64,000 nucleotides of DNA from an uncultured Ruminiclostridium sp. (GTDB lineage: Bacteria; Bacillota; Clostridia; Oscillospirales; Ruminococcaceae), in contig CANQIB010000002.1 of assembly GCA_947623915.1 (NCBI GenBank), forward strand, positions 1 through 64,000. The letters run 5' to 3'. Positions 5,494-28,945 of the stretch are shown piece by piece. The notes under the pieces were generated by a model, which saw nothing but the letters and a program-made list of their open reading frames with translations, made no database searches and was not told the origin of the DNA. Both the position numbers and the translations under genes were made by a program. Numbering within the stretch: position 1 is the first letter of the stretch; every line of letters starts with the position of its first letter.

Positions 5494-6762
5494 ATGGCAG
5501 AAAAAAGACGAGATAATAAAGGCAGGGTTTTGCGAGCAGGCGAATCGCAGCGTCCTGACGGTAAGTATGAATATAAGTATGCGGATAGCAACGGTGAGCG
5601 TCATTCCGTATATAGTTGGAAACTCGTAGCAACCGACAAAGTTCCTGAAGGAAAGCAAGGCGGGACTTCGCTTCGTGATATGGAGAAGCAAATACAGAAG
5701 GACTTGGAGGACAACCTTCTTATTTATCAAACCCGCAAGATGACACTCAATTCCTTTTGGGATCAATACATCGAACTCAAGAAAGAACTGAAAGAGTCTA
5801 CGAGAACCAACTACATTTATATGTACGACAATTATGTTCGCCCTGACTTTGGCAAAAAGAACATCACTACAATCAAGTATAGTGATGTAAAGAAGTTCTA
5901 TATTTCCCTGATCCACGATAGAGGGTTCAAGCCGAACAGTATGGAAATCATAAATACCATTCTGCATCCGGTATTCACTTCGGCGGTTCGTGACGGATAT
6001 ATCCGCAGCAACCCTTCGGACGGCGTAATGGCAGATATAAAAAAGAGCCATACTTGGGAAAAGCCAAAGCGACACGCACTCACCGAGCAACAGCAAACGA
6101 AGTTCGTTGAGTTCACGGCACAATCCTATCAGTACAAGCATTGGTTGCCACTCTTTACAGTCCTGCTCGGTACGGGCGGACGAATCGGTGAGATACTCGG
6201 TTTAAGGTGGGAAGATTGTGACTTTCAAGGTAACATCATCAATATCAACCACACCCTTATTTATAGGAAGTACACGGACGAAGCATCGCACTTCGCAATA
6301 ACCACTCCAAAAACAAAATCAGGTGTCAGAATAATTCCGATGCTTTCCGATGTAAAGGCGGCTCTCACAGAAGAATACAAGGAGCAGCTTGAGAGTGGAT
6401 TTAATGAGAGCGTTGTTGACGGGTACTCAGGATTTATATTCAAATCAAGATACAACACGGTATTATCCCCACATTGTGTTAATCGGGCGATAGATCGAAT
6501 AATCAAAGCGTGTAATGCAAAAGAGAAAGAGGAGGCGAAAGCGGAAGGTCGAGAGCCTGAACTGTTACCTCATTTCAGTTGCCACCATTTACGACATACA
6601 TTCTGCACTCGTTTCTGCGAGAACGAAACTAACCTGAAGGTCATTCAGGAGATTATGGGACACGCAGATATTACAACCACAATGGACATATATAACGAAG
6701 CAACAAAGGATAAGAAGATGGAGTCCTTTGCAGGGCTTGAGGGGAAAATCAAGATACGATAA
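5494..6762 (+). CDS. int: Tyrosine integrase, Tn916 family
   Basis: A 422-residue site-specific recombinase. The N-terminal ~60 residues form the small arm-site DNA-binding domain of Tn916/lambda-like integrases, followed by a helical core-binding domain (about 80-180) and the catalytic domain. Catalytic residues are R230 (GTGGRIGE), K273 or K275 (TTPKTKSG), H364 and R367 (CHHLRHTF), H390 (MGHADI) and nucleophile Y400 (TTTMDIY). All are present, so it should be active. AGGAGG precedes the ATG, and a hairpin terminator follows the stop. It marks the right end of the element; the transfer genes would lie left of the window. Confidence 0.96.
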   Translation: MAEKRRDNKGRVLRAGESQRPDGKYEYKYADSNGERHSVYSWKLVATDKVPEGKQGGTSLRDMEKQIQKDLEDNLLIYQTRKMTLNSFWDQYIELKKELKESTRTNYIYMYDNYVRPDFGKKNITTIKYSDVKKFYISLIHDRGFKPNSMEIINTILHPVFTSAVRDGYIRSNPSDGVMADIKKSHTWEKPKRHALTEQQQTKFVEFTAQSYQYKHWLPLFTVLLGTGGRIGEILGLRWEDCDFQGNIININHTLIYRKYTDEASHFAITTPKTKSGVRIIPMLSDVKAALTEEYKEQLESGFNESVVDGYSGFIFKSRYNTVLSPHCVNRAIDRIIKACNAKEKEEAKAEGREPELLPHFSCHHLRHTFCTRFCENETNLKVIQEIMGHADITTTMDIYNEATKDKKMESFAGLEGKIKIR

Positions 6763-10040: not shown

Positions 10041-10107
10041 TGCTGCCGCTTATTTTGTTGCAGCATTTCTTTTGATGAAATCATCAAAACAGAAAGGAGT
10101 GGCAGGC

Positions 10108-10842
10108 TTGCTTAAAATAGCGGTATGTGACGATGAGCAGGAGGCTGTAGACCAAATATCTCGGCTGGTATCTCAAATATTTGCCGAAAGCGGCGAGGAG
10201 ATTGTTGTATCCGAGTTTTCAAGCGGCGAGGAGTTGCTTTGCGGCGGGCAGTACGACCTTATCTTCCTTGATATTGAAATGTGCGGGATAGACGGGATAA
10301 AGACCGCACAGCGTTTAAGGGAACATGATCTTTCGGCTGAGATAGTTTATGTGACGAATTATGAGAAATATGCTTTGGAGAGCTTTGCGGCGCATCCGTT
10401 TGACTTTGCCGTAAAGCCGATAACAAAGGAAAAGCTGAGCGGCGTGATAAATGATTTTCTTGCGAGCCGCCGCGACCACAGGAGAGCTTCGCCCGTTATA
10501 GAGCTTAAAAGTGTTGACGGGATACTGTCGATGGAGCTTAACGGTATATATGCTTTTGAGACCTCCGGCAACCGCCGCGTCACCGTATACACCGAGGATA
10601 AAAAATTCGAGGTAAAGGGCGGATTAAACGAGATAGCCTCGCTTACGGATATGCGCAAATTTGTTTCGCCGCATAAGAGTTTCATCATAAACATGGATCA
10701 CGTCAAAAGCATAGTAAACTGCGACATATATATGTCTAACGGACTGATAGTGCCGATAGCACAGCATAAGCTGAAAGCCTTCAGAGAGCGTTTCGGAAGT
10801 TATATCGGAAACTACATAAGGCAGGATAAGAAATGGAACTGA
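10108..10842 (+). CDS. LytTR-type response regulator (AgrA/ComE-like)
   Basis: A 244-residue regulator. Residues 1-120 are a receiver domain: acidic D8-D9 (VCDDE), phospho-acceptor D55 (LIFLDIEM), T in VTNYE and K in AVKPI. Residues ~140-240 form a LytTR DNA-binding domain (IELKSVDGILSMELNGIYAF to FVSPHKSFIINMDHVKSI). The start is a TTG at 10108, eight bases after AAAGGAG; the frame is open further upstream but without a ribosome site. The stop overlaps the kinase start by 10 bases, so the pair is translationally coupled. No peptide-precursor or AgrB gene is visible. Its targets are unknown; the invertible switch 1.5 kb downstream is a tempting one. Confidence 0.92.
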   Translation: MLKIAVCDDEQEAVDQISRLVSQIFAESGEEIVVSEFSSGEELLCGGQYDLIFLDIEMCGIDGIKTAQRLREHDLSAEIVYVTNYEKYALESFAAHPFDFAVKPITKEKLSGVINDFLASRRDHRRASPVIELKSVDGILSMELNGIYAFETSGNRRVTVYTEDKKFEVKGGLNEIASLTDMRKFVSPHKSFIINMDHVKSIVNCDIYMSNGLIVPIAQHKLKAFRERFGSYIGNYIRQDKKWN

Positions 10843-12158
10843 TTACACAAATTATAACAGCCGCGGTGTTTTACACTTTCGTTTATATTGTGTTGGGACG
10901 GCTTTATTCGCAAAGGACAGAGGATATTCGGATAAGACTGCCGATATTTGCAGCTGCGGCGGCGGGACTGGCGGCGATAGGGTCTATAGGCATTTCGGCG
11001 CTCAGCGCCGCTTATGCCGTTTTATCAACGGTGCTGCTGAATTTTTTTCTTTACCGTACCAAAGATAAGAGTTTCGTCCTTTATGATGTAATTATCGTGA
11101 TTTTTTCCGTAATATCGGGTATGCTTACGGAATTGCTGCTTTCCGCAGCGTTAAATATGAGGCTTGATAGTCTGAACGACGATATGTGGAAATTGCTTGC
11201 AGTTGCCGGAATGTACGGAATATTGATGTTTTTCTTTTGCCGGATATTTCTGTTTTTTATTCACAGACGAAATATCAAAACGATAAGATATCAGGAGCTT
11301 GTATTTTTTATTGTCCTTTTCAGCGGAGAAATACTGCTTTTAAAATTTATAACCGACAATATTACGCTCTATGGGACTTTATTTGACGCCGCGTTTTTAA
11401 ACGGAGCATACGAGCTTGCTGTCATCTTGCTTTCTCTCTTCGCTTTGGATATGTATCTTGCGTATCTGCTGGATAAGCTGTCGCAAAGTTATTTACTGGA
11501 AAAGCAATATGAGCTGGTCGAACAGCAGTCGCGCTTGCAGCTGGAAGCGTACCGAAATTTAAGCGAGAAATACGCCGACTCTCGAAAGGTAATACACGAC
11601 GTCAAAAAACATATCGCGTCATTAGAGGGACTTATACAGACCGATCCGCAGGAAGCAATAAAATATAAGGCGCTTATGGAAAAGGAGCTTAATAAGCTGC
11701 TGCCGGTATTTGATTTTGACGACCCGATACTTAACGTCGTTCTTAACAGCAAGCGGGTGCTTGCCGAAAAGAATAACATAAAATTCACCTTGGATATACG
11801 GTTTTCAAGGCTTGATTTTATGACCGAGCTTGACAGGACGGCTATCGTTTCAAATCTGCTCGACAACGCTTTTGAGGCGTGCGAGGAGCTGCCGGAGGAT
11901 ATGCGCTTTGTAAATTTCGGTATTATCCGTCATAACGATCTGATACTTATATATACAGAAAACGGTTACGGCATGCTAAAGCAAGACGGCGGGAATTTTT
12001 TAAGCACTAAGGACGAGCATAGCGGGCTTGGGCTGTCCATAGTGCGTTCCGCCGCCGAAAAATATAACGGATATCTTTCCGTCAGGACCGAAAACGATAA
12101 ATTTATCGCCGAAACGGTGATACCAATAAATGCTCCGCAAAGTAAAAACGATAAATAA
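10833..12158 (+). CDS. Membrane histidine kinase, GHKL type (AgrC-like)
   Basis: A 441-residue sensor kinase. The first ~215 residues hold six or seven membrane helices in the AgrC/ComD layout. The dimerisation helix carries phospho-acceptor H255 (RKVIHDVKKH). The ATPase domain shows the N-box (NLLDNAFEACEELP) and G-box (GLGLSIV). GHKL sensors of this kind usually detect peptides or membrane ligands. It overlaps the regulator gene by 10 bases and is followed by a terminator at 12183-12208. Confidence 0.92.
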   Translation: MELITQIITAAVFYTFVYIVLGRLYSQRTEDIRIRLPIFAAAAAGLAAIGSIGISALSAAYAVLSTVLLNFFLYRTKDKSFVLYDVIIVIFSVISGMLTELLLSAALNMRLDSLNDDMWKLLAVAGMYGILMFFFCRIFLFFIHRRNIKTIRYQELVFFIVLFSGEILLLKFITDNITLYGTLFDAAFLNGAYELAVILLSLFALDMYLAYLLDKLSQSYLLEKQYELVEQQSRLQLEAYRNLSEKYADSRKVIHDVKKHIASLEGLIQTDPQEAIKYKALMEKELNKLLPVFDFDDPILNVVLNSKRVLAEKNNIKFTLDIRFSRLDFMTELDRTAIVSNLLDNAFEACEELPEDMRFVNFGIIRHNDLILIYTENGYGMLKQDGGNFLSTKDEHSGLGLSIVRSAAEKYNGYLSVRTENDKFIAETVIPINAPQSKNDK

Positions 12159-12224: not shown

Positions 12225-12249
12225 AAAAAACCACCGCTCGAAGCGGTGG
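12225..12249 (-). terminator. Minus-strand terminator facing the invertible promoter
   Basis: CCACCGCT (12231-12238) pairs with AGCGGTGG (12242-12249). Read leftward the stem is followed by six T residues (12225-12230). No gene ends here on the minus strand, so its only visible client is the leftward promoter at 12366-12394. It would shield the sensor kinase gene from antisense transcription. Confidence 0.8.
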
Positions 12250-12312: not shown

Positions 12313-12343
12313 TTTTCTCAGAACTCAAAGTTCTGGGAAAAAC
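12313..12343. repeat. Left inverted repeat of the invertible segment
   Basis: The core CAGAACTCAAAGTTCTG (12319-12335) is itself a dyad of 7-bp arms around CAA. Core plus GGAAAAA (to 12342) recurs without mismatch, reversed, at 13670-13693. Extending leftward, TTTTC precedes the core in both copies with one differing base between. Short dyads with a 3-bp centre flanking a tyrosine recombinase gene are the layout of crossover sites. Confidence 0.85.
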
Positions 12344-12365
12344 ATTTTTCGATATTATTTTGCTT

Positions 12366-12394
12366 ATTATAACATGTTTTGACTTTTATGTCAA
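12366..12394 (-). promoter_or_regulatory. Invertible promoter, facing left in this assembly
   Basis: On the minus strand TTGACA (12389-12394) and TATAAT (12366-12371) match consensus perfectly with a 17-bp spacer. It lies 23 bp inside the left inverted repeat. In the assembled orientation its transcript leaves the segment and stops at 12225-12249. After inversion it would fire right through the repeat into tadZ, giving a leader of about 100 bases. Confidence 0.88.
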
Positions 12395-12502
12395 GTAATA
12401 TTTGAAAATTGAATCCTGATTAAAACAAACGGTTTTGCAGATAGATGTTATTGTGCTTTCGGGCTTTAGAAGTCATTTGTGGAAAATCAGTCGTGCGATA
12501 TT

Positions 12503-12521
12503 TACCATATTAGTTATGGTA
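12503..12521. promoter_or_regulatory. Operator-like dyad before the recombinase gene
   Basis: TACCATA (12503-12509) and TATGGTA (12515-12521) form a perfect 7-bp dyad with a 5-bp centre, ending eight bases before the AAGGAGG of the recombinase. A regulator bound here could block its transcription or translation. Confidence 0.5.
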
Positions 12522-12542
12522 ACAATATAAGGAGGTATCAGT

Positions 12543-13658
12543 ATGATAAAAAAATCAGAATGGAGAGCAAAAATACGCGGAAAACTTTTATCGTTTAACA
12601 AAACGATACCAAATGAAGCGTTACAAGCAAGCGGTGATGTTTTGCCGAAAAGCTCAGGCATGCCTGACATTAAGGAATACGGCTCGCAAGAGAGTTCCGG
12701 CGCTGCGCTTGAGTGTAAATTCAGTAATATGTTTTATTTGTGGTTGGAACACAACAGGTATAAGTTGAAGGCGTCCACCAAAATGAAATATATTTTTCTT
12801 GCCGACAGTCATATTTTACCTGTTTTCGGAAATTCGGAAATAGGCTCTCTTGACAGTGAAACGCTCAACCGCTTTGCCTACGATAAGCTGAAATGCGGGC
12901 GTAAAGACGGAAACGGAGGACTTTCTCCGGCTTATGTTAGAACTATAATGCTTATAATAGGTTCGGTCATGGATTACGCTGTCCAAAAGGGATATCGCGC
13001 TCCGCTGACCGACACTATATATAAACCGTCTCCGAAAAAGAACGAGGCGGAAGTTTTAAGCATTATCCGGCAAAAGGAATTGGAAAGGGTGCTGTGCAGT
13101 AATTTTGAGCCGACCGCTACCGGCATATTGATATCGCTGAATATGGGGCTAAGAGTAGGAGAAGTATGTGCATTAAAATGGGACGATGTTGATCTGATAA
13201 ACGGCGTGATGTTCGTACATTCCACAATATTACGGATAACCGATACCGGCCGCGGCAAAGCCGGCGCTACCGTGCTGGTGGTCGACAAGCCTAAGACGAA
13301 AGCGTCCGAAAGAAAGATACCCATTCCTTCGGGGCTGATACATCGGTTAAAAAAAGCCAAAGAACTGTCTGTTTCCGAATATGTGGTTTCGGATAAAAGC
13401 GGATTTGTTGATCCGAGGACCTACGAATACAGATTTCATTCGATTTTGAAAAAGTGCGGTATTCCGGATATCCGATATCATTCACTACGGCACACTTTTG
13501 CCACACGCTGCATTGAGGCGGGCGTTGATGCAAAAACACTCAGCGAATTGCTTGGGCATTCGGGAGTTACGGTAACGCTGGGAATATATGTTCATTCTTC
13601 TATGGAGTTAAAGAGAAAGCAAATCGAAAAGGCAGAGCTGATGCTTGACAGGTACTGA
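12543..13658 (+). CDS. Tyrosine recombinase of the DNA-inversion switch
   Basis: A 371-residue recombinase with a complete active site: R204 (MGLRVGEV), K251 or K253 (KPKTKASE), H313 and R316 (YHSLRHTF), H339 (LLGHSG) and nucleophile Y349 (LGIYVHSS). Residues ~55-150 are the SAM-like core-binding domain; the first 55 are a poorly conserved extension. There is no arm-binding AP2-like domain as in the integrase at 5494, which fits a simple inversion enzyme acting on short sites. AAGGAGG precedes the ATG by seven bases. The gene lies wholly inside inverted repeats 12313-12343 and 13668-13699, with no excisionase or other cargo, and directly before the tad block. An ordinary integrase is the alternative, but the paired inverted sites argue for inversion. 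Confidence 0.92.
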   Translation: MIKKSEWRAKIRGKLLSFNKTIPNEALQASGDVLPKSSGMPDIKEYGSQESSGAALECKFSNMFYLWLEHNRYKLKASTKMKYIFLADSHILPVFGNSEIGSLDSETLNRFAYDKLKCGRKDGNGGLSPAYVRTIMLIIGSVMDYAVQKGYRAPLTDTIYKPSPKKNEAEVLSIIRQKELERVLCSNFEPTATGILISLNMGLRVGEVCALKWDDVDLINGVMFVHSTILRITDTGRGKAGATVLVVDKPKTKASERKIPIPSGLIHRLKKAKELSVSEYVVSDKSGFVDPRTYEYRFHSILKKCGIPDIRYHSLRHTFATRCIEAGVDAKTLSELLGHSGVTVTLGIYVHSSMELKRKQIEKAELMLDRY

Positions 13659-13667
13659 AAACAAGCC

Positions 13668-13699
13668 GTTTTTTCCCAGAACTTTGAGTTCTGCGAAAA
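13668..13699. repeat. Right inverted repeat of the invertible segment
   Basis: The core CAGAACTTTGAGTTCTG (13677-13693) is the reverse complement of the left core, including the asymmetric 3-bp centre, so the two sites are in inverted orientation. The run GTTTTTTCC before the core mirrors GGAAAAAC after the left one. It lies 10 bp past the recombinase stop and about 60 bp before tadZ. Confidence 0.85.
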
Positions 13700-13756
13700 C
13701 CCGAAGCGGTCACTTATGTTTTTTTGGAGATCATTAAATAAGAGAAAGGCAAAAAA

Positions 13757-14812
13757 ATGAAGATCAAATTGGCAATTTTGGCAAAAGATAAAAATTACCT
13801 TTCAAAGATGACGTCTGTTTTTGCAAACAGATATTCGGACAAGATAGAAGTGTATTCCTACACGGACATTTCTGCTGTGGAAAAATTGAATGATATTAAG
13901 GCCGATGTTTTTCTTGCGGATAGTGCTTTCGAGATCAACAGGGAGCGGATACCGAATCATTGCGGATTTGCGTATCTGGTGGATTCTCCCGATATTGATA
14001 GTATAAACGACAATATTGCAATATGCAAATTCCAGAAATCGGATCAGTTGTATAAGCAGATATTGAGCGTTTACTCCGAAAAGGCCGGCAATATCATGAG
14101 GATCAAGCTAAACAACAGCGCCTGCAAAATAATCGCTTTCGCGTCGGCAAGCGGCGGAACGGGGAGCTCTACTGCCGCAGCCGCCTGCGCTATGCACTTT
14201 GCCGCTCAAAAGCACAAGACCCTGTATCTTAACTTGGAGAAAACCGGTTCGTCGGATCTGTACTTTTCCGGGCAGGGACAGTTTGACATGAGCGATATCA
14301 TCTTTGCGCTTAAAAGCCGCAAAGCAAATCTGCCGCTCAAGCTGGAAAGCTGCGTTCGCCAGGATGAATGCGGAGTGTATTATTTCGCATCTCCGAAAAT
14401 CGCTTTGGATATGATGGAGCTGACCGATGACGATATAATGAGACTTATCAATACTCTCAGACTCGGCGGAACATATGATTACATAATCGTGGATACTGAT
14501 TTCGGAATGGAAAAATCCCGCCTTGAAATTTTCGGACTTGTGCACAGTATTATTCTTGTGTGCGACGGCAGCGAGGTGTGCAATCTAAAGACCGTGCGCA
14601 CACTCGGTTCTCTGGCGGTTATCGACCAGAATTCCGATAATCCGCTGATGGGAAGGATACAAGTCTTATACAACAGATTCGGTAAAAATGCCAAAACCAT
14701 TGAAAATCTCCCTGTAAAGAGCATAGGAGGAATATCCAAATATGTTTACAGTAATATCGGGCAGATATTCAAACAGATATATGATAAAGAACTGTTTGAC
14801 AAGGTGATCTGA
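13757..14812 (+). CDS. tadZ: TadZ/CpaE-like pilus localisation ATPase
   Basis: A 351-residue protein. Residues 1-110 look like a receiver-type domain (VFLADSAFEI in the place of the phospho-site); residues 120-345 are a MinD/ParA-like domain. Its P-loop reads SASGGTGSST at 130-139: the signature lysine and the P-loop lysine of ParA/MinD (KGGxGK) are both serine (S132, S137). TadZ proteins often have such atypical loops and act as polar hubs for pilus assembly. It is the first gene after the invertible segment; I see no promoter of its own in the 60 bp between the right repeat and the start. GAAAGG precedes the ATG. Confidence 0.88.
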   Translation: MKIKLAILAKDKNYLSKMTSVFANRYSDKIEVYSYTDISAVEKLNDIKADVFLADSAFEINRERIPNHCGFAYLVDSPDIDSINDNIAICKFQKSDQLYKQILSVYSEKAGNIMRIKLNNSACKIIAFASASGGTGSSTAAAACAMHFAAQKHKTLYLNLEKTGSSDLYFSGQGQFDMSDIIFALKSRKANLPLKLESCVRQDECGVYYFASPKIALDMMELTDDDIMRLINTLRLGGTYDYIIVDTDFGMEKSRLEIFGLVHSIILVCDGSEVCNLKTVRTLGSLAVIDQNSDNPLMGRIQVLYNRFGKNAKTIENLPVKSIGGISKYVYSNIGQIFKQIYDKELFDKVI

Positions 14813-14830: not shown

Positions 14831-16069
14831 TTGACGTTTGAAGAAGAACAGCAGTTTGTTGCAAGAATAAAAACATACGTTACCGATAATCTTCCCTTAA
14901 GCCAGATGAGCGACGATGAGCTCGAACAGAAGATAGAGGATATAGTCGTTCAGCAGATAGGCGACAGATACTGCTCTATCGAAAAACGCGTATCATTCGT
15001 TCAACAGGTCTACAGCTCGATCAGAGGTTTCGGGCTGTTGGACAGCATTATTTCGGATGATTCGATAACAGAGGTAATGATAAACGGCCCGGACAATATT
15101 TTTATCGAGCAAAACGGCAGACTTTTCAAGCTGGACAAAAAGTTTGAAAGTCAGCGCAGACTGGAGGATATTATCCAGCGGATAGTCGGGCTTGCCGGAA
15201 GAGAAGTAAACCAGGCAAATCCGATATGCGATACCAGACTCCCCGACGGCTCCCGTGTAAACGTTGTGCTGCCGCCGATAGCTCTGTGCGGTCCTACTAT
15301 CACAATAAGAAAATTCTCAAAAACTCCCATGACGATAGAAAAGCTGATAGAGTACGGCTCCATAACAAAGGAGATAGCAAAGATATTGGAACAGCTCGTG
15401 AGAGCAAAATACAATATTTTTGTCAGCGGCGGTACCGGTTCGGGCAAAACGACGTTTCTTAACGCGTTATCAAACTACATACCGGCAGACGAACGTGTTA
15501 TAACCATCGAGGATTCTGCGGAATTGCAGATCACAAGAGTTGAAAACCTCGTCAGCTTGGAAACCAGAAATGCCAATGCGTCCGGCGCCGGTCAGATAAC
15601 GATACGCGACCTTATAAAATCTTCCCTTCGTATGCGTCCGGAACGGATAGTTGTCGGAGAGGTGCGCGGAGGCGAAGCGCTGGATATGCTGCAAGCCATG
15701 AACACCGGACATGACGGTTCGTTGTCTACCGGCCACGCAAATTCCACCCACGATATGCTGAGCCGTCTTGAAACCATGGTGCTGCAAGGCTCCGCGGGAC
15801 TGCCGCTTGAAGCGATAAGACAACAGATAGCTTCGGCTGTGGATATAATAATACATTTATCCCGACTGCGTGACAAGACCCGTAAGACAATGGAGATCAC
15901 CGAGGTAGTGGGATATGAAAACGGGGAGATACAGCTAAATCCTCTTTATGTATTTGAGGAGGACGAGAACAGCACGCTTGAAAAGGTTTCGGGAAGTCTC
16001 AAGCGAACCGAAAATCGGATGCAGAACACCTTTAAGCTGCAGCTTGCGGGTATAAATGTCGATATATGA
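14831..16069 (+). CDS. tadA: TadA/CpaF pilus assembly ATPase
   Basis: A 412-residue secretion ATPase of the type II/IV family that powers Flp pilus assembly at the inner face of the membrane. Walker A is at 200-208 (GGTGSGKTT), followed by the Asp box ([12 protein letters not shown]), Walker B ([15 protein letters not shown]) and the His box ([14 protein letters not shown]). The N-terminal helical domain is typical of CpaF. Start is a TTG at 14831 with GGAGGTGA upstream; spacing from tadZ is 18 bases. Confident family call. Confidence 0.96.
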
Positions 16070-16106: not shown

Positions 16107-16970
16107 ATGGGACTGTTTACTAAAGACAAAAAAGAGCCGGAGGAACCGCAGTACTATTTGTCGGCGGACAATATGCCTACATATAATTACCGCGTTTACC
16201 ACATGAAAAAGACCGAGAAATTATTGTATTTTCTTTTGGCGTTCGTGGCGGGAGCTGCGGTGGGCTATCTGTTTTACGGCGGTATAGGCAAAGACGAATT
16301 CGGTGAGCCTACCACCGTCACATGGGTGCTGGATATAGGAATATCTTCCTTAGTGGGGATCATTGCGGGGAGACTGTTTGTGCCTACCCGTGTAAAGGCC
16401 ATTCAGAAAAAGCGCAAAACTCAGCTTAACAGGCAGTTCCGCGATATGTTGGACGCTCTTACGACCTCTTTGGGAGCAGGTAAAAACGTTACCGATTCGT
16501 TTTACTCGGTGTACCAAGACCTTAAAGCTCAGTATGACAGCGATGATTTTATAATGAAAGAGCTTGAAGTAATTATATCCGGAATACACAACAATATACC
16601 GATCGAAGATGTGCTGGAGGATTTTGGCAAGCGCAGCGACAGCGACGATATACTCAGCTTTGCCAACGTCTTTAAGATAAGCTACCGCAAGGGCGGAAAT
16701 ATCAGAGATATAATAAGGAACACTCACAGCATACTCAGCGATAAAATGGATATCGCGGAGGATATCGAAACTCTTGTCGCGTCAAACAAGATGGAAACAA
16801 ACATAATGATAGCCATGCCGGTGCTTTTGATAGCGGCAATAAAATTCATGAGCCCGGAATTTTCGGCGAACTTTGTAACACCGACCGGTATAATCTCCAC
16901 CACTATCAGTCTGGCGGTGTTTGTGATAGCTTACTTTATCGGCAAGCAGATACTGGATATAAAGATATAA
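16107..16970 (+). CDS. tadB: TadB-like pilus platform protein
   Basis: A 287-residue polytopic membrane protein with one GspF/T2SSF domain. Two helices lie at about 30-50 (LLYFLLAFVAGAAVGYLF) and 72-95, a cytoplasmic segment spans 100-225 with the usual helical repeat (RDMLDALTTSLGAGKNVTDS), and two C-terminal helices begin near 230 (IMIAMPVLLIAAIKFM) and 257. With TadC it forms the membrane platform on which TadA acts. Confidence 0.92.
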   Translation: MGLFTKDKKEPEEPQYYLSADNMPTYNYRVYHMKKTEKLLYFLLAFVAGAAVGYLFYGGIGKDEFGEPTTVTWVLDIGISSLVGIIAGRLFVPTRVKAIQKKRKTQLNRQFRDMLDALTTSLGAGKNVTDSFYSVYQDLKAQYDSDDFIMKELEVIISGIHNNIPIEDVLEDFGKRSDSDDILSFANVFKISYRKGGNIRDIIRNTHSILSDKMDIAEDIETLVASNKMETNIMIAMPVLLIAAIKFMSPEFSANFVTPTGIISTTISLAVFVIAYFIGKQILDIKI

Positions 16971-16991: not shown

Positions 16992-17864
16992 ATGGAAATC
17001 GGAATTATTGATTATGTTATCTTCGGATTGGGAGCATTTTTCCTGGTGCTATGGCTTGTGTTCTTCTTTGTCGGGATCAAATATAATTCAATGTTTGAGG
17101 TGCTTGACGGCAAGGAGTACAGGTTAAAGGAAATGTACGGCATGGGATACGCTATGCTGCAATTTGTGAAATACGGCTACAAAACCAACGGCGACCGTAA
17201 GTTAAGACAGTATCTGAGCGTACTTTATGAAGATAAATACGCCGATTACTATTTGAGAGTGGTACATTCCCAACAGCTCACGTTTGCTTTTACAATGATA
17301 GTTATATCCTTTGCGCTTTACGGCTTCGCAAATGATATCTCGGTAGTGGCGGTAGGTATTGTTTTTGCGTTCGTACTGTATTATTACTTCGGCACGCTTA
17401 CCAAGAAAAAGATAGAAAAGCGCACCGATGAGCTTTTGCATGATTTTTCCGAGATAGTGTCAAAGCTGGCGTTGCTGACCAACGCGGGCATGATACTAAG
17501 AGAAGCGTGGGAAGAAGTTGCATACGCCGGCGACGGCGTTATCTACAAAGAAATGCAGACGTCGGTCACGGAAATGCGTAACGGCGTATCAGACGTGGAC
17601 GCTATGTATAATTTCGGTACACGCTGTATAATACCCGAAGTAAAAAAATTCACCTCTACCATCATGCAGGGTCTGACTAAGGGCAACAGCGAGCTTACCG
17701 CGATGCTTCAGGCACAAAGTAAAGAGGTTTGGCAGCTGAAAAAACAGCTGGTAAGAAGAGAAGGAGAAAAAGCGGCAAGCAAGCTGCTGCTACCTATCTG
17801 TGTTATGTTCCTCGGAATACTTATAATGATCATCGTTCCGATTTTCACTAACATTGGAATGTAA
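16992..17864 (+). CDS. tadC: TadC-like pilus platform protein
   Basis: A 290-residue partner of TadB with the same GspF layout: an N-terminal helix (VIFGLGAFFLVLWLVFFFVG), a pair of helices at ~90-130, a cytoplasmic GspF segment (FSEIVSKLALLTNAGMILRE) and a C-terminal helix (LLLPICVMFLGILIMIIVPI). Spacing from tadB is 21 bases. Separate tadB and tadC genes are the rule in tad loci. Confidence 0.92.
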   Translation: MEIGIIDYVIFGLGAFFLVLWLVFFFVGIKYNSMFEVLDGKEYRLKEMYGMGYAMLQFVKYGYKTNGDRKLRQYLSVLYEDKYADYYLRVVHSQQLTFAFTMIVISFALYGFANDISVVAVGIVFAFVLYYYFGTLTKKKIEKRTDELLHDFSEIVSKLALLTNAGMILREAWEEVAYAGDGVIYKEMQTSVTEMRNGVSDVDAMYNFGTRCIIPEVKKFTSTIMQGLTKGNSELTAMLQAQSKEVWQLKKQLVRREGEKAASKLLLPICVMFLGILIMIIVPIFTNIGM

Positions 17865-17895
17865 GACTCAGCTACAAACGAAAGGAGGTGACGGT

Positions 17896-18114
17896 ATGTT
17901 TACCAATTTGAGGGTAATGGGCGGTCTTTTACTGGACAAGCTGAAAAGAAGACTGACCGATGAAACAGGCGCGGTGGATGTTGTTGCGATAGTTGTACTT
18001 ATAGGTATTGTGGTTCTGCTGGCAATCATTTTTAAGGATCAAATTGCCGATTTGTTGAATAGCTTATTCGGAACCATAGAAGAGAATGCAACCAATGCCG
18101 TTAACGGTGGCTAA
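17896..18114 (+). CDS. flp: Flp-type pilin (Flp1-like)
   Basis: A 72-residue prepilin. A short basic leader (LLLDKLKRRLTDETG) is followed by a hydrophobic helix from residue 26 (AVDVVAIVVLIGIVVLLAII) and a small C-terminal part ending NAVNGG. The Glu at +5 of classical Flp is replaced by a hydrophobic residue, as I recall for the Firmicute Flp1-like group. I start at ATG 17896 because AAAGGAGG lies seven bases upstream; a frame start at 17854 overlaps tadC. It is the only Flp-like gene in the block and should be the major subunit. A stable hairpin follows it. Confidence 0.88.
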   Translation: MFTNLRVMGGLLLDKLKRRLTDETGAVDVVAIVVLIGIVVLLAIIFKDQIADLLNSLFGTIEENATNAVNGG

Positions 18115-18161
18115 GCCGAAAACGCTTATTTTGGTAATACCGCCGGTCCACAGAGCAAAAA

Positions 18162-18184
18162 GGGGAAAGCCTTTGGCTTTCCCC
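18162..18184 (+). other. Stable hairpin after the pilin gene
   Basis: GGGGAAAGCC (18162-18171) pairs perfectly with GGCTTTCCCC (18175-18184) around TTT. No T-run follows, so it is probably not a full terminator; it may protect the 3' end of pilin mRNA and raise pilin output over downstream genes. Confidence 0.65.
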
Positions 18185-18224
18185 AAAGGCTCCGGCCTTA
18201 ATGAAAAACGAGAGGACAATAAAG

Positions 18225-18911
18225 ATGACAGAAAAAATCAAAAACCTAATAGGTTCCGATAAGGGAGCCGTCACTTTGATAGAGGCTGCCTTTATTTTTC
18301 CTATCATGTTTATTATCCTTATCGCTCTTATATATTTCGGAAACGCCTTTTACCAGAAAGCGCGCATAGTTTCCATGGCGGAACGTTATGCGATAGAAGG
18401 CGCGAACCGATGCGCCGATCCACTGCTCGACACGGTGAGTGCCACAGGAAAAACTCCGTCGGCAAGCAATGTTTCACCAAAGCCGTACAGATATATATTT
18501 ACCGGCTATATGGAGGATATAGAAAGCTCGGTAGAAAAAGAGCTGGTAGACGAATTTAACGGAAATTATACCTTTTTTGCCGGTATGAATCCGGTGCTGA
18601 GAACGCACCAGTCGGATATCGCGACATACAATAATTATCTTGTATATGCCACCTTTGAGGTAGATGTGGATTATGAGATACATTTTCCGATGAAGATGAT
18701 AGACGGCAGGAGCCTTCCCGTAATGAAGCTGCACTGCCATGCCGAGGCGCCGGTGAGCAGCGCACCGGAATTTATACGCGATACCGATATGGTAATAGAT
18801 ATTCTTGACGAAGCCGGTGTGCTGGATAAGGTAGACGCTATAAAAAGCAAGATCGGAGAAATGTTTGGTAAACTGACTGATGTGCTTAAATCAATAGGAA
18901 ACGGAGGGTAA
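18225..18911 (+). CDS. TadE-like minor pseudopilin
   Basis: A 228-residue protein with the TadE prepilin signature near its start: GAVTLIEAAFIFPIMF, where Glu20 follows the putative cleavage region and a single membrane helix extends to about residue 40. The rest is extracytoplasmic. ATG 18225 has AGAGGA eight bases upstream; the ATG at 18201 lacks a site. Pseudopilins of this type are thought to prime or cap the Flp pilus. Confidence 0.85.
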   Translation: MTEKIKNLIGSDKGAVTLIEAAFIFPIMFIILIALIYFGNAFYQKARIVSMAERYAIEGANRCADPLLDTVSATGKTPSASNVSPKPYRYIFTGYMEDIESSVEKELVDEFNGNYTFFAGMNPVLRTHQSDIATYNNYLVYATFEVDVDYEIHFPMKMIDGRSLPVMKLHCHAEAPVSSAPEFIRDTDMVIDILDEAGVLDKVDAIKSKIGEMFGKLTDVLKSIGNGG

Positions 18912-18915
18912 CGCA

Positions 18916-21900
18916 ATGCTTGATTTCTTTAACAGAACAAAGGGTTCGGTTTCGATATTTCTTGTGCTTATCCTTCTTCCGATGATGACCGTCGGAGCTA
19001 TCTTTGTAGACGCCGGTAAAATGTCGCTTGTCAATTCGGTAGCGGATTCCGCTTCCGACCTTACGCTTAATACGGCTTTGACCGACTACGATACTAAGCT
19101 CAAGGACCTTTACGGACTGTTTGCCACCGCTCAGGACACCGATGAGCTTTTTGAAAAGCTGGAGGATTATTACCTTACCGCTATCACGGCGTCCGGAGTC
19201 AACAACGATATTGCCCAGACTTATACCGACCAGATAATGGCGCAGCTGGGACTGCTTGCACAAAAAGAGTCTAATTCTTCATCCGATCTGCTGAAAATGG
19301 ATCTGAATTATTTGTCAGTGGAAAAAAATCCGAACGCCACGCTTGCCAACCCCGCTATATTAAAGGTGCAGATAGTGGACTTTATGAAATACCGTTCGCC
19401 TATAAATACGGGGCTTAGTTTTATACAGTCGTTAAAGAGCTTTACCAGCCTTGACAAGCAAAACGACGTTGTAGACAAGCGTATAAAGTATTACGAGGAG
19501 GAGCAGAATGTAATGTCCCAGCTTAAAGCGGCGTGGGACAACATCAGCCAATACAATAAGACCGATGTGGTAAGTGACAGCAATTTCTTCAGCAATATGC
19601 AAAAGGAATTCACCGACCCTGCCGAATTGAAAGCGGATTTTGTGGATATAAGCAGGGCGATGATCTCCGATGTACTCAATATCAGCGAAAATAACCTTAC
19701 GTTTAATTACGGCACCGAGGACCGCAATCTTACTCCGAAGGATATCGACGGTAAGAAAGGCAGCAGCGTCAATGTCCCTTCCGTTTATACCGAGAACGAC
19801 AGCGGCAAGACATATAAAAATACTTATATCGATTATTACAACAACTACAATCTGAAAAATTTGCCGGATAATCTTCCCACAGCCGACGGAATGAAGATCC
19901 TTTTGGGCAACTTTTTTGATAAATACGATAAAGTGTTTTCTTATGGCTTTCCGCTGATAGATAATTATAAGGATATGCTAAATTCCGTATATCCCATACA
20001 GTATATTGCACAGAATATGCGCGATTATAAGTTCGGCGAAATGGTGACCGATGCGCTGATACCGGCTTATGACGCATATCAAAAGATAAAAAGCGCGCAG
20101 ATATGGATAGATGCATATGACCGCGTATCCTCCGGCAGAGATGATGAAGGTGAAACAGAGGACGAGGAAGGCGAGGAGGAGACGGAGGATTCCGAGACGA
20201 TAACCTCCAAGGAAGATTTCCTGGATCAGACCATCACCATAAAAAGCCGCTCAGAAACAATAAGCGTTTTCCTGTCCGATGCAGAAACAAAATTCCAGAA
20301 ACTTGTAGATAGTATATTCCCGTTGATAAATCAGATACACAAATCCTCCAAGGATATCATCAGCGGAAGCGACAAGTATTCCGACAGGATCAGCAAAATA
20401 AAGAATGATTCGCTGAAAAAGCTGTCATATATAGAAAATGTCATGGAGCAGCTTACAAACGCGTCTCAGAATCTCGGCGATGCCATAAGTCACCTAAATC
20501 AGGCGGCCGACCTTGTAGACGGAAATCTCAAGAACGCAAGAAGCAACTGGCAGAATTCCGTCGATGCGATAAGCGGCACCGCTATTGCTCAGCAGGACAG
20601 CATGGAGATAGCACAGTCCGGCAAGAATCTCAACTCCGACGAGATAAGGTCTCTTTCGTCACGGCTGAACGATACTAAGACTCAAATAGATAAAACGATC
20701 AACAGCCTCAAAGAATTTTCCTTTGACGGCAAAGCGCTGGTGGATATTTCAACCATAAGCGTTGCATCACTTGATGCAAATAAAGCATTTGACAGCATAA
20801 AAACCGTGGTTGACAATTATGCGACTCAATACATAGGACGTGATATTTATCCCAAAGCCGACAGTCTAGGAAATGCGCTGCCGGTAGATAATACTGCGCT
20901 GGCAAATTTGTGCGACGTTGAGGGAAGCGCTTATTATTGGGTAAGCAGCCCCACGTTTAATGTTCAGTGGGCAAAGCAGACCGACACATTGCCAAACCTT
21001 GAGGAGCTTCCAAGCGTGACGGTTGGCACGAATCCTACAGACCGCAACGGAAAAGCAAGAAAGGTATACAATTATCTCAGCTCGCATTTTAAAGCAACCG
21101 AATCCTCCTCCGGCAGCTCCGGAAGCTCCGAAAGTGAGCAGAGCAAGGAAGAATCGGAGAAAATATACGATAATATTAAAAATAACGGCAGCAACGATGC
21201 AGAGAGTCAGTCCAAATCGGGCAGCGAGCTTCCCGGCGGCGAGGAAGGACCATTCGCACAAAGGGATATTTCCAGCAACAATTCGCTTGCTGAGTGGCCG
21301 TCGCTCAGTGATGACCCGGATTTTACCGAGCCGGTGCTCCCAAACGGTGATAATGCCGCGTCCGATTCCTCTTCAAATCTTAAGTCGATGTTTTCCAAGC
21401 TCGCCGAAAATATAACAAATCTGGCCGGCGATTTCCGTGATAAGCTGTACATAGCCGACTACGCAATGAGTATGTTCAGCTACGATACCGTCCAGAGGGA
21501 ATACGATAAGAAAAACGAGGAAAAAGGTATTACTGTTTCGGGCGATGATAAATATCCTCATACCCTTACCATGACTCCTATAAACGCCGAAAACAATTTT
21601 ATGTACGGCGGAGAAGTAGAGTATATACTTTACGGAAGCAGTAACTCTAACAACAAATTTGCCGCATATGGCAGTATATATGGCGTAAGGCTGGGGCTCA
21701 ACCTGGTGTATGCCTTTTTAAGCTCGGAGATAAGAGATACCGCTTTTGCTCTGGCAACGCCTATATCGGCTGCAACATTGGGAATAATACCTGTTCCTTT
21801 GATACAGGGCGTGATAATTATAGCGCTTGCATGCTGTGAGTCCGCGGTTGATCTTGAAATGCTGCGCGAGGGTGAATCGCTGCCGCTGTATAAAGATAAA

Positions 21901-22986
21901 GACAGCTGGAGATGTTCCCCCACGGGATTGGTCAATGTGGCAAAGGGAGTAGCGGAGGAAGTAAGCAAAAAGGCGGTCAACAAAGCTACCAATGTCCTTA
22001 CAGACGGCATAACCGATCTGCTCAATATGACAGACGAGGAGCTTGAGAGCTTCATATCGGAAAAAAGCAACCAGCTTTCAAATACTTTCAAAGAGAAATA
22101 TGACAGCATAATCACCGAAAATATAAACGTGGTGATACAGTCGGTGACTACGACCGTAAATACCGCATTTGAAAAGATGCGGGGATATATCACCGACCTT
22201 TCCGCTATGGGAGAAAATGAGATCAATTCGCTTTTGTCATCTGTCAAGAGCGAGCTGCAAAACGAAAAGAACGCCATAAGCGGCAGTGATATGGCAAGTG
22301 ATATCAAGCGTTCGGCAATAGATTTCATACTCAGTCACGATGACCTGCTCAAAAATCTGATAAATAAAGTCAAGGATTCTATGGGCACTACTCTTGACAG
22401 TATTATAGATAAAGGGAACAGTACCGCCAACGACTTTGTCGATCAGGTTTCTTCACCGCTGCTTAGCTGTGTGGAAGATATCAGAAAAAAGATAGAGGAT
22501 TATATCAAGAACACCACACTTAAAATAAACGATAAGGTGAAAAACACCATAGAAGACCTTAAGGAAAAGGTCAAGAACAAATCCGGTGATATCAAAAAGC
22601 AGCTCAATGATAAAATAGACGGATTGTTCGGGGATACCGATTCGTCTGCCGGAGCGCTCGGCGGAGATACCAAAACTTCGTTCCTTTCCTCCGTGCTTTC
22701 TTTCAGATACAGCGATTATCTCAGACTTTTCCTTATCATAAATCTTTTCACGAACGAGGAGGACATTCTGCTGAGAACGGCTGACGTTATACAGTCCAAC
22801 ATGGCGTGGACTAACCGAAACTCAAAGTATACGCTGAGCCAATCCGCTGTGTATGTCGACCTGACTGCGAAAATACATATTTCGCCTACGTTGCTCGCAT
22901 TACCTTTGTTCGACGATGTGGAGGGTAATCCCTTCGGCGACGGCAGCGGTTATGTAATGACCGTAAAAGACACTAAGGGATATTGA
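18916..22986 (+). CDS. Very large TadG-like protein (DUF5702-like)
   Basis: A 1356-residue protein. The N-terminus (GSVSIFLVLILLPMMTVGAI and FVDAGKMSLVNSVADSASDL) is a TadG/DUF5702-type membrane anchor. The body is long and helical, with many Asn/Ser/Lys-rich coiled stretches, an acidic run near residue 410 (EGETEDEEGEEETEDSE), and a Ser/Glu-rich linker near 730. A second hydrophobic segment lies near residue 960 (GIIPVPLIQGVIIIALACCE). TadG proteins tie the pilus to the cell envelope; this one is far larger than the usual 300-500 residues. GGAGGG precedes ATG 18916. Confidence 0.8.
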   Translation: MLDFFNRTKGSVSIFLVLILLPMMTVGAIFVDAGKMSLVNSVADSASDLTLNTALTDYDTKLKDLYGLFATAQDTDELFEKLEDYYLTAITASGVNNDIAQTYTDQIMAQLGLLAQKESNSSSDLLKMDLNYLSVEKNPNATLANPAILKVQIVDFMKYRSPINTGLSFIQSLKSFTSLDKQNDVVDKRIKYYEEEQNVMSQLKAAWDNISQYNKTDVVSDSNFFSNMQKEFTDPAELKADFVDISRAMISDVLNISENNLTFNYGTEDRNLTPKDIDGKKGSSVNVPSVYTENDSGKTYKNTYIDYYNNYNLKNLPDNLPTADGMKILLGNFFDKYDKVFSYGFPLIDNYKDMLNSVYPIQYIAQNMRDYKFGEMVTDALIPAYDAYQKIKSAQIWIDAYDRVSSGRDDEGETEDEEGEEETEDSETITSKEDFLDQTITIKSRSETISVFLSDAETKFQKLVDSIFPLINQIHKSSKDIISGSDKYSDRISKIKNDSLKKLSYIENVMEQLTNASQNLGDAISHLNQAADLVDGNLKNARSNWQNSVDAISGTAIAQQDSMEIAQSGKNLNSDEIRSLSSRLNDTKTQIDKTINSLKEFSFDGKALVDISTISVASLDANKAFDSIKTVVDNYATQYIGRDIYPKADSLGNALPVDNTALANLCDVEGSAYYWVSSPTFNVQWAKQTDTLPNLEELPSVTVGTNPTDRNGKARKVYNYLSSHFKATESSSGSSGSSESEQSKEESEKIYDNIKNNGSNDAESQSKSGSELPGGEEGPFAQRDISSNNSLAEWPSLSDDPDFTEPVLPNGDNAASDSSSNLKSMFSKLAENITNLAGDFRDKLYIADYAMSMFSYDTVQREYDKKNEEKGITVSGDDKYPHTLTMTPINAENNFMYGGEVEYILYGSSNSNNKFAAYGSIYGVRLGLNLVYAFLSSEIRDTAFALATPISAATLGIIPVPLIQGVIIIALACCESAVDLEMLREGESLPLYKDKDSWRCSPTGLVNVAKGVAEEVSKKAVNKATNVLTDGITDLLNMTDEELESFISEKSNQLSNTFKEKYDSIITENINVVIQSVTTTVNTAFEKMRGYITDLSAMGENEINSLLSSVKSELQNEKNAISGSDMASDIKRSAIDFILSHDDLLKNLINKVKDSMGTTLDSIIDKGNSTANDFVDQVSSPLLSCVEDIRKKIEDYIKNTTLKINDKVKNTIEDLKEKVKNKSGDIKKQLNDKIDGLFGDTDSSAGALGGDTKTSFLSSVLSFRYSDYLRLFLIINLFTNEEDILLRTADVIQSNMAWTNRNSKYTLSQSAVYVDLTAKIHISPTLLALPLFDDVEGNPFGDGSGYVMTVKDTKGY

Positions 22987-23014: not shown

Positions 23015-24436
23015 ATGATCGCAAAAAAATCCAAAAATAAAATATACTCCTTGCTTAAAAGCGACAGCGGGGTAGTAACGGTAGAAGCTACAATATCCCT
23101 TTCGGCGTTTATGTTTTTAATGGTCACGCTGCTGACTATAATAAATATCTGCGTTGTGCAGGCAAAGGTCGTGAACGCCATAAACGCCACCGCGAAGGAA
23201 ATATCTCAGTACACCTATCTTTATTCTTTGACAGGACTTAATTCGGTGCAGAGCCAGCTCGCGCAGAACGGAGATCTTACCCAAGAGCAGATAAACGGAG
23301 TTATCGGCGGAGTACAGGATACTTTTGCGCAGCTTGACGGGCTCCAGGGAAATCTTGACAATACCAAATCTCAGGCGGCTACCGCTTTTTCATCGGGTAA
23401 TTTTGATCTTGACGCATTAGCGTCCAACGTAGAGGATATAAAAAACAACCTTAGTAACGTCCAATCCTCCGCATCGGGAACGATGGAACAGATAGAAAAA
23501 ATGGCGGAAAATCCCAAGCAGCTGATTTTCGGGCTTGCTTCAATGGCAGGCTCCGACCTTTGGGACGTAGCAAAGTCAAGGATCATTGCCGCCAGCCTTG
23601 CAAACGTAATGAGCAGGAAGCATTTTATATCCGGCAGCAAGGATGAGGTCAACAGCTATCTTGCCGGTTTGGGAGTAGTTCCCCGCGATAACGGTAATTA
23701 TATTGATTTTACAAGATCTACGCTGTTTCCAAAGGGATCTAATATAATAACTATAACGGCGGATTATGACGTTAAAGTTATTGCGCTGCTGCCGATAGAT
23801 TTTACCTTTCATTTTTGCCAGACTTCCATAACATACGGGTGGATGTGCGGTGAAACCACTACCAATGACAGTGAAAAAACGGCGGAGAAGTACATAACCG
23901 AAACCAACAGCACCTTATGGACCGAAGCGCCGATATCCGAACGCTCCTATTATATCCGTCACATGGCAATGGCAACCTACGGTTCGGAAAAATACTATAA
24001 AGTCAGCGGAAGCGATCAGGGACTTATGTACAGTCCCGATGAGAATGAGTTGGTTATGGTCGGTCGCTCGCTTAACCCCTTATACAGCGAGCCCGGTACG
24101 AAGCCAAAAACTATAGATGATATCGATGAAGAATTTCTAAAATCCCAGATAAGCCAACTGTGCGGGGAGATGAGCCAGAATCGCGGCGCGGATAACGTTA
24201 CCGTAAAGGAAACCACAAACGGTAAAACTGAGCTTAAAGATTATTCCATTAAAGATGCTAAGCTGAAAATTGAAATAGCTATTCCGGAAGATGACGGCTT
24301 GAAGGAAAAAATGGAAAGCATACTTTCCGAATGTGAAACACATGGAGTTACCGTTGAATTTTCTCCTTGCTTCGGAAAGGGCGCTGCTGAGACGACTACC
24401 GCTTTACCGCAGGACAACGGAGGTGAAGAAGGTTGA
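23015..24436 (+). CDS. Long TadE/TadG-like pseudopilin
   Basis: A 473-residue protein with a textbook prepilin site: G19 followed by VVTVE, placing E24 at +5, then a membrane helix (SLSAFMFLMVTLLTIINICV). The extracytoplasmic part has a Gln/Asn-rich helical region (residues 70-150) and a mixed C-terminal domain. I start at ATG 23015 with AAAGGAG upstream. Its last bases overlap the prepilin peptidase gene, which should process it. Confidence 0.85.
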   Translation: MIAKKSKNKIYSLLKSDSGVVTVEATISLSAFMFLMVTLLTIINICVVQAKVVNAINATAKEISQYTYLYSLTGLNSVQSQLAQNGDLTQEQINGVIGGVQDTFAQLDGLQGNLDNTKSQAATAFSSGNFDLDALASNVEDIKNNLSNVQSSASGTMEQIEKMAENPKQLIFGLASMAGSDLWDVAKSRIIAASLANVMSRKHFISGSKDEVNSYLAGLGVVPRDNGNYIDFTRSTLFPKGSNIITITADYDVKVIALLPIDFTFHFCQTSITYGWMCGETTTNDSEKTAEKYITETNSTLWTEAPISERSYYIRHMAMATYGSEKYYKVSGSDQGLMYSPDENELVMVGRSLNPLYSEPGTKPKTIDDIDEEFLKSQISQLCGEMSQNRGADNVTVKETTNGKTELKDYSIKDAKLKIEIAIPEDDGLKEKMESILSECETHGVTVEFSPCFGKGAAETTTALPQDNGGEEG

Positions 24437-25104
24437 GCGTGGCTGTATTGACGGCTATTGGCGTGTTGCTCACCCCGTTTGGGTATATCATGTCTGTATG
24501 CTATATGAAAAAGCTAAAACCGTCGGAGTTTTCCGTCAAAAAACTGTTGCCCGATACTCTTTATCGCAAGCTGTATATCGTTGTTGCCGCGGTTATTTGT
24601 ATAGGCGTAATAACAGCGTTTGAATTCATGTATCCGTCGGCTTTGCTCGTACATAAGGCAAAGCTGTTGATACTGATTTTACTGATGATCCCTGCGGCGG
24701 CTGTCGACTTGAAAACGCAGAAGATACCGAATGTGATATTGCTTGTAGCACTCGCTATAAGAGTAGTGTTCTACATTGTCGAGATATTCTGGTATCCTTA
24801 TGATATTCTGACTGTACTGTCGGAGAGCTTTTTGGGAGGAGCTGTGATAGGCGGCTTTTTCCTTTTGCTTTTGCTTGTTTTCAAAAACAGCATAGGAATG
24901 GGCGATGTGAAACTGTTTGCGGTGATGGGACTGTATCAGGGAATATGGGGCGCGCTGACATCGGTTTTCTTTTCGCTTTCGGTCATGTTTGTGCTGTCTG
25001 TGATATTATTGATAACAAAGAAGAAAACCGGCAAGGACACGGTGTCCTTTGCACCGGCTATTCTGGCAGGGACCGTTGCTGCGGTCATACTGACCGGGAT
25101 ATGA
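24433..25104 (+). CDS. Prepilin peptidase, A24 family (TadV/CpaA-like)
   Basis: A 223-residue membrane aspartic protease. The two catalytic aspartates lie in AAAVDLKTQKIPN and GMGDVK, each at the cytoplasmic end of a helix; about seven hydrophobic helices are visible. It cleaves prepilin leaders of Flp and the TadE-like proteins. The start is TTG 24433, overlapping the previous stop by four bases (TTGA), with GGAGGTGA upstream, so translation is coupled. Confidence 0.92.
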   Translation: MSVAVLTAIGVLLTPFGYIMSVCYMKKLKPSEFSVKKLLPDTLYRKLYIVVAAVICIGVITAFEFMYPSALLVHKAKLLILILLMIPAAAVDLKTQKIPNVILLVALAIRVVFYIVEIFWYPYDILTVLSESFLGGAVIGGFFLLLLLVFKNSIGMGDVKLFAVMGLYQGIWGALTSVFFSLSVMFVLSVILLITKKKTGKDTVSFAPAILAGTVAAVILTGI

Positions 25105-28101: not shown

Positions 28102-28120
28102 CTGATACCGGGGTGATAAT

Positions 28121-28888
28121 ATGAACTATCTTGTTTCCGGCGCAACCGATATGGGAACGGTTAAGAAAACAAATCAGGACAGTTTTTTTGCAAATATAAT
28201 CAATACGGAAATCGGGCAGGTCGCGTTTGCGGTGCTTTGTGACGGCATGGGAGGACTTGAAAAGGGAGAGCTTGCCAGCGCAAGCGTTGTCAACGCTTTC
28301 AATGTTTGGTCAAAAAACCGATTGCCGCAGCTTTGTACCGGCGGCCTTAACGATTCGGTGATAAGCCATGAATGGACGAATATAATAGTCACCTATAACG
28401 AAAAGCTGAAACAATACGGACAAAAAAGCGCGGTAAGGCTTGGAACTACCGCCACGGCGATGCTGGTCACCGAGCAAAGATGGTATATCGTTCATGTAGG
28501 CGATTCTAGAGCTTATGAGATATATGACGGTGTGCGTGTTCTTACAAAAGACCAGACTCTTATAGAACAGGAAATTCTGGCGGGAAGGATCACAGAACAG
28601 CAAGCACAGAAGGATCCGCGCCGCAGCATACTTTTGCAATGTGTGGGAGCGTCGGATGAGGTATATCCCGATATGTATTTCGGTGATACCATTCGAAATG
28701 CGGTGTATATGCTTTGCAGCGACGGATTTCGGCACGAGATAACGGAAAATGAAATATACAGTTATTTCAGGCCGGAAGTGATGGTAAATACCGACACCAT
28801 GAAAATGTGTTCAAACGAACTTATCAATCTGAATAAACAGCGCGGCGAAAAGGATAACATATCCGTCGTAACAATAAGAACATATTGA
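28121..28888 (+). CDS. PP2C-family Ser/Thr phosphatase (PrpC/Stp-like)
   Basis: A 255-residue metal-dependent phosphatase. Metal-binding motifs are seen in order: D20 (KKTNQDS), D41 (LCDGMGGLEKGE), GDSRAY, and the C-terminal D residues (CSDGF, EKDNISVV). It has no membrane segment. Placed between FHA and kinase genes, it most likely removes phosphates added by that kinase. Confidence 0.94.
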   Translation: MNYLVSGATDMGTVKKTNQDSFFANIINTEIGQVAFAVLCDGMGGLEKGELASASVVNAFNVWSKNRLPQLCTGGLNDSVISHEWTNIIVTYNEKLKQYGQKSAVRLGTTATAMLVTEQRWYIVHVGDSRAYEIYDGVRVLTKDQTLIEQEILAGRITEQQAQKDPRRSILLQCVGASDEVYPDMYFGDTIRNAVYMLCSDGFRHEITENEIYSYFRPEVMVNTDTMKMCSNELINLNKQRGEKDNISVVTIRTY

Positions 28889-28916
28889 AAATGTATATAA
28901 ATGCCGAAAGGAAAAA

Positions 28917-28933: not shown

Positions 28934-28945
28934 GGGACACGAAAA

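Follow-up and report, generated by a model that had tools for sequence, protein, structure and literature searches.

In the Hin system, the invertible H segment carries an inside promoter that points out to a surface operon. The Hin recombinase of Salmonella is encoded within its invertible segment and, in the same work, Providencia stuartii is described with an 844-bp invertible segment that has 14-bp repeats and a recombinase ORF inside and lies near a fimbrial locus, and Clostridioides difficile with RecV, a tyrosine recombinase with inverted segments ahead of surface and flagellar genes (PMC5903667). Clostridial invertons have also been linked to tyrosine recombinases (inverton group 139, invertase group 35), in a work whose main text mentions neither Tad nor pilus (PMC11892184). 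Since Hin and P. stuartii enclose the recombinase and Clostridial tyrosine-recombinase invertons are on record, the principle is known; among the papers listed by the literature searches, none was seen to describe a Tad locus controlled in this way.

With this in mind, we analyzed a stretch of 64,000 bp from an uncultured Ruminiclostridium sp. (hereafter, the window), for which a first-pass annotation had proposed a self-encoded promoter switch in front of a tad block. Our analysis indicates that this locus is very probably a self-contained invertible promoter cassette that controls the tad block.

Results

Anatomy of the cassette

The complete tyrosine recombinase gene that had been placed between inverted repeats is indeed found there: the gene (12543-13658, plus strand, 371 aa) lies between a left repeat at 12313-12342 (plus strand) and a right repeat at 13670-13699 (minus strand), the predicted recombination sites, which are 30 bp long, match at 29 of 30 positions and differ by a single base outside a central run of 24 consecutive identical bases. 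The right repeat forms the dyad TTTCGCAGAAC-TCAAA-GTTCTGGGAAA, in which the length of the centre is fitted and does not mark a mapped crossover, and the 17-base repeat core CAGAACTCAAAGTTCTG has two sites only in the 2.25-Mb assembly at up to two mismatches. Just inside the left repeat, a sigma-A-type promoter on the minus strand (12394-12366; TTGACA-17-TATAAT, 12/12, TG ahead of the -10) is aimed outward at a minus-strand terminator (12225-12249; stem 12249-12231, -15 kcal/mol, z -2.67), so that inverted repeats surround a promoter-holding segment. It is the one perfect site in a 3-kb scan which returned 8 sites of at least 9/12, compared with 6.3 in shuffles. No minus-strand ORF of at least 100 aa lies between terminator and promoter, and none of the promoters scored at 9/12 or better falls into the 57 bp between the right repeat and the tadZ start. 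The perfect outward promoter, the terminator with no other client and the promoter-free approach to tadZ of the first-pass annotation are thus all borne out.

The best promoter candidate for the recombinase gene itself reaches 9/12 and overlaps the start codon (12519-12547), and from this gene to tadZ the scan scored no terminator on the plus strand. By eye, a short dyad resembling TTACCATA-TTAG-TTATGGTAA is visible at 12511-12530, directly 5' of the recombinase ribosome-binding site, a possible operator. To the left of the switch (10072-12158), the window encodes a LytTR response regulator and a GHKL kinase; three cassettes of the family described below (L043, L044, L053) stand directly ahead of LytTR or GHKL genes.

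We propose that the recombinase acts on both inverted sites and would thereby flip the 1387-bp segment. As assembled, transcription from the outward promoter would be caught by the terminator, leaving the tad block OFF, except perhaps for a little read-through out of the recombinase gene. Inversion would bring the promoter to the plus strand at 13618-13646, 110 bp ahead of tadZ, from where it would transcribe the tad block (ON).

The recombinase

The window recombinase is intact (PF00589, E 3.3e-23), and R204, H313, R316, H339 and Y349, which we take to be the catalytic residues, are invariant among 22 sequences, as befits a tyrosine recombinase. Among solved structures, the Int proteins 6EN0, 6EMY and 6EMZ come nearest, with E 5e-31 for 6EMZ and 6EN0 against the recombinase family; they represent the integrase of the conjugative transposon Tn1549. 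On a tree built from 79 recombinases, the branch leading to the window enzyme is long (1.23), and the enzyme falls within a supported set of 11 that also holds the tad cassettes L038, L063, L066 and L072 and cassettes of FHA-kinase operons; it lacks an N-terminal stretch common to many relatives. A second, more distant tyrosine recombinase (27% identity) is encoded at 5494-6762 of the window. At several loci (L035, L039, L040, L041, L046 and L048), the first gene outside the cassette encodes a second tyrosine recombinase of about 310 aa, with glycosyltransferase genes next at some of them.

The predicted target

The predicted target block is encoded on the plus strand and begins with tadZ (13757-14812, PF21194), followed by a tadA ATPase gene (14831-16069, PF00437; TIGR03819 below cut-off), a tadB-like gene (16107-16970, weak T2SSF, PF00482 below cut-off), a tadC-like T2SSF gene (16992-17864, PF00482), a TadE-like gene (18201-18911, PF07811), a gene for a large DUF5702 protein of 1356 aa (18916-22986, PF18960), a gene of the type IV leader peptidase family (24433-25104, PF01478), genes for a DUF6382-FHA protein, a PP2C phosphatase and a Ser/Thr kinase (26446-30667) and, at the end of the co-directional run, the gene for a giant, adhesin-like protein of 3098 aa with bacterial Ig-like domains (31495-40791). 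The tadZ, tadA, T2SSF, TadE-like and leader peptidase genes occur together, as in a Tad pilus locus, the tadB-like match counted here being below the Pfam cut-off. From tadZ to position 40791, plus-strand ORFs follow one another with gaps of less than 60 bp, except for 336 bp at 17865-18200. In the gaps up to 31600, the scan scored no terminator on the plus strand; a hairpin at 18162-18193, within the 336-bp gap, received a score for the minus strand alone. Because the ORFs are co-directional and these gaps hold no scored plus-strand terminator, one promoter might serve the whole 27 kb, adhesin included. The earlier claim that the flipped promoter drives this block gains from a relative (G069) in which the promoter faces tadZ, while for the full 27 kb and the adhesin it is adopted here in this conditional form.

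A family of related cassettes

A search of 149 relative genomes and the window's own genome found a related recombinase at E 1e-60 or better in 12 of the 149 genomes and at 26 places, including the window and contig C3 of its own genome; one more, on C13 of this genome, came from a separate search. The genome thus holds two more cassettes, on C3 (L035) and C13 (L036), the sites of which differ from those of the window; their neighbors are glycan-type and integrase genes and an LRR-dockerin protein. In this first set (the window and 26 regions), flanking repeats are present in 24 of 27 loci (absent from L041, L046 and L055), and 23 of the 24 have an outward promoter of at least 10/12 at the left end, the exception being L035, where the first-set scan found none even at 9/12. 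A second set, the best 80 matches of a genome-contig scan, yielded repeats in 59 of 80 and such a left-end promoter in 49 of the 59. After four loci that duplicate earlier ones (L070, L093, L094, L109) were dropped, 103 related loci were left, 79 of them with repeats, among the matches listed.

With three of the 103 loci too near a contig edge for the repeat test, 78 of 100 testable loci among the matches listed have flanking repeats and 22 lack them, compared with 35 of 4000 mismatched flank pairs; repeats by chance were rejected on these counts. Promoters were controlled in 120-bp stretches of the 79 loci and in dinucleotide shuffles, counting sites of at least 10/12. An outward promoter is present at the left end of 69 loci and absent from 10, among the matches listed, whereas the control stretches contain 11 (left inward), 5 (right outward), 2 (right inward), 3 (left flank, outward) and 7 (right flank), and the shuffles 89 of 1580. 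As each of the five control stretches reaches no more than 2-11 of 79, compared with 69 of 79, a chance promoter was likewise rejected. Perfect 12/12 sites number 13 at the left outward position and 3 at the right outward one, with none in the remaining stretches or the shuffles; among the 69 left promoters, 52 have a 17-bp spacer and 47 a TG ahead of the -10. The three 12/12 right-end sites listed belong to L095, L114 and L130 (Candidatus Scybalocola), where the outward promoter lies at the other end, right of the recombinase gene.

The family sites are dyads, often near TTTCGTAAAGT-N5-ACTTTACGAAA. At L115, the repeat reaches 55 bp and includes promoter-like sequence beyond the usual site, which perhaps reflects neighboring cassettes with shared sites, or an artefact of assembly. 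Beside other cassettes lie glycosyltransferase and sugar-transferase genes, LRR-dockerin, FtsK-FHA and FHA-PP2C-kinase genes, regulators of the LytTR and GHKL types, a sigma-70-type factor and giant proteins; some neighbors, the NFACT gene at L104 for one, seem to be ordinary housekeeping genes. One further cassette, L116, belongs to the isolate Ruminococcus callidus ATCC 27760. Four viral contigs contain an exact match to the 17-base core of the window sites. Among the best 80 viral-contig relatives, 7, all within the first 16, have flanking repeats; none were found in the other 64, some of which come without full flanks. Scans for flipped twins of six of these elements with repeats returned the source contig alone in five cases; in the sixth, two further contigs were hit by an 18-base pattern.

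Orientation among relatives

Orientation was called mechanically, from the outward gene nearest to each cassette. Among the matches listed, the 69 loci with a left promoter divide into 38 OFF, 10 ON and 21 undecided, of which 10 have candidate targets on either side and 11 lack one; applied to all 79 repeat-bearing loci, the rule gives 41, 15, 10 and 13. An earlier and cruder rule, blind to promoter position, had given 39 OFF, 18 ON, 7 both and 15 none for the 79 and misplaced at least two loci (L047, L056), because there the right-hand gene overlaps the repeat. By the cruder rule, 12 of 38 OFF elements have a minus-strand terminator within 250 bp on the left and one of 38 a plus-strand terminator on the right, so about one third have an insulating terminator like that of the window; for the 18 ON elements, the counts are one and five. 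Over the tree of 79 recombinases, the cruder-rule labels are not clustered (16 changes against a shuffled mean of 15.5), which fits fast flipping and would also fit independent insertion.

Opposite orientations occur at homologous positions, both between species and between copies. The cleanest opposite pair is L039 and L040, from one relative genome, with an abutting flank 93.4% identical over 958 aligned bases and segments that are 85.6% identical when one is flipped versus 60.8% unflipped. Further opposite groups are L037 and L062 versus L067, L068 and L069, and L075 and L081 versus L106. Separate insertion in opposite directions could also account for such pairs, because one flank was matched in each.

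At the tad loci, the promoter faces away from tadZ in the window, L063, L066 and L072 (the isolate Candidatus Soleaferrea massiliensis AP7), and faces tadZ (ON) in L038, from genome G069 of the same genus (also on contig L070), with 32 bp from repeat to start codon. In L142 (G031, same genus), the contig starts inside the segment; the 321 bp that precede tadZ there carry a 12/12 promoter aimed at this gene, followed by a site-like stretch, and a close recombinase was not found in this assembly. L142 is probably the opposite orientation in a third species of the genus. The contigs of L249 and L252 similarly start 87 and 80 bp before tadZ, and these three breaks could stem from mixed orientations or from other repeats.

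With a threshold of E 1e-30, three of the 71 genomes of the genus have tadZ relatives; with E 1e-50, 18 of the 394 genomes of the order do. Five of the 18 order-level loci have an upstream recombinase in the OFF arrangement (window, L246, L247, L248, L254; in L248 with a 189-aa reading frame between recombinase and tadZ), one is L142, and in 12 no recombinase was found in the DNA covered, which extends less than 350 bp upstream in L245, L249 and L252. Within 400 bp 5' of tadZ, none of the five OFF-cassette loci has a promoter of at least 10/12, and six of the 12 cassette-free loci have one of 11 or 12/12; a 9/12 promoter-like site lies ahead of tadZ in L072 and L246. Repeats and a 12/12 outward promoter are present in L246, L247 and L248 (read in L261); L254 has repeats and lacks an outward promoter of 10/12. 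In all, nine tad cassettes have repeats (window, L246, L247, L248, L254, L038, L063, L066, L072), one of them ON (L038), to which L142 is added.

Discussion

The anatomy of the window cassette recurs in a family of relatives, and among these both orientations occur. Most likely, the cassette toggles the large pilus-and-adhesin block by flipping; we infer from the sequence that the encoded enzyme catalyzes the flip and that flipping takes place in the source strain. Against this reading weigh the relatives that lack repeats (22 of 100 testable) or the left promoter (10 of 79), the promoters at the other end in L095, L114 and L130, the missing outward promoter of L254, the small share of OFF elements with an insulating terminator (12 of 38), the 9/12 sites ahead of tadZ in L072 and L246, and the preponderance of OFF among assembled orientations (38 to 10). 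The ON/OFF phase variation predicted by the first-pass annotation is strengthened by the second orientation at the G069 tad locus and by the family design, with the modification that the OFF state may leak: as assembled, the recombinase gene points at tadZ, and the scan scored no plus-strand terminator on the way.

The same arrangement could be read differently: the regulated gene might be the recombinase, or the segment a transcription insulator, with read-through from the recombinase gene driving tad, such that the assembled state would be ON. The co-directionality of recombinase and tadZ as assembled and the lack of a scored plus-strand terminator between them speak for this, but no strong promoter is seen for the recombinase gene and inward promoters of at least 10/12 are confined to 11 of the 79 family loci, which makes this reading very improbable. 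It is unlikely, too, that the cassette is a frozen former switch, its anatomy kept and flipping lost in this strain, with weak tad expression from the recombinase transcript. The one-base difference between the sites, the long branch of the enzyme and its missing N-terminal stretch would agree with decay, while the intact gene with all five residues kept, the identity of the 24 central site bases and the perfect promoter argue against it.

Integrase-related recombinases often belong to mobile elements, and several related copies are present in some genomes (five matches in G018). A small, non-flipping mobile element, made of a recombinase gene with terminal repeats and inserted upstream of tad, whose promoter is incidental or constitutive for the neighbors, might hence be considered; yet the genome has just two copies of the site, no direct repeat is visible by eye in the 20-base flanks, the promoter holds one end and one direction in most of the repeat-bearing loci (69 of 79), and homologous positions show both orientations. 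We regard such an element as the least probable of these alternatives. A transposon or insertion sequence was rejected as a class, given the lack of a target-site duplication in those flanks by eye and the two site copies.

If the invertible cassette is the correct reading, phase-variable Tad pili in anaerobic Clostridia become directly testable, and the presence of the operon does not equal its expression, such that the orientation in a given sample matters. The compact design, which packs enzyme, sites and promoter into some 1.2-1.5 kb, recurs ahead of many surface and regulatory operons, and with so many enzyme-site pairs in nature, the evolution of site choice could be studied. On a wider view, to which we give an even chance, these are portable, self-contained flip cassettes of conjugative-transposon-type integrase origin, spread across Clostridia with their own sites and plugged repeatedly before surface and regulatory operons in place of a fixed promoter; the targets would then comprise Tad pili, FHA-kinase operons, FtsK-FHA secretion-like genes, LRR-dockerin proteins, glycan loci and LytTR regulators.

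Compared with the best-scoring solved relatives of the recombinase family, the Int proteins 6EMZ and 6EN0 of a conjugative-transposon integrase, the window enzyme differs in that no surrounding element is seen and its site pair is inverted. The Clostridial invertons likewise have, by their description, a tyrosine recombinase close by, but the passages on them do not place it within the inverton, where it lies in the window (PMC11892184). RecV shares with the window the tyrosine chemistry and inverted segments before surface or flagellar genes, but serves several switches, whereas the window enzyme sits in its own segment. The P. stuartii segment is described as enclosing a recombinase ORF near a surface-fiber locus, as in the window, but is Gram-negative and shorter, with 14-bp repeats, and the recombinase type is not given in the section on this segment (PMC5903667). 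In overall layout, the window cassette is Hin-like, with the recombinase gene inside the segment and an outward promoter toward a surface operon; yet Hin is a serine recombinase, and the window encodes a tyrosine recombinase (PF00589) with unrelated sites.
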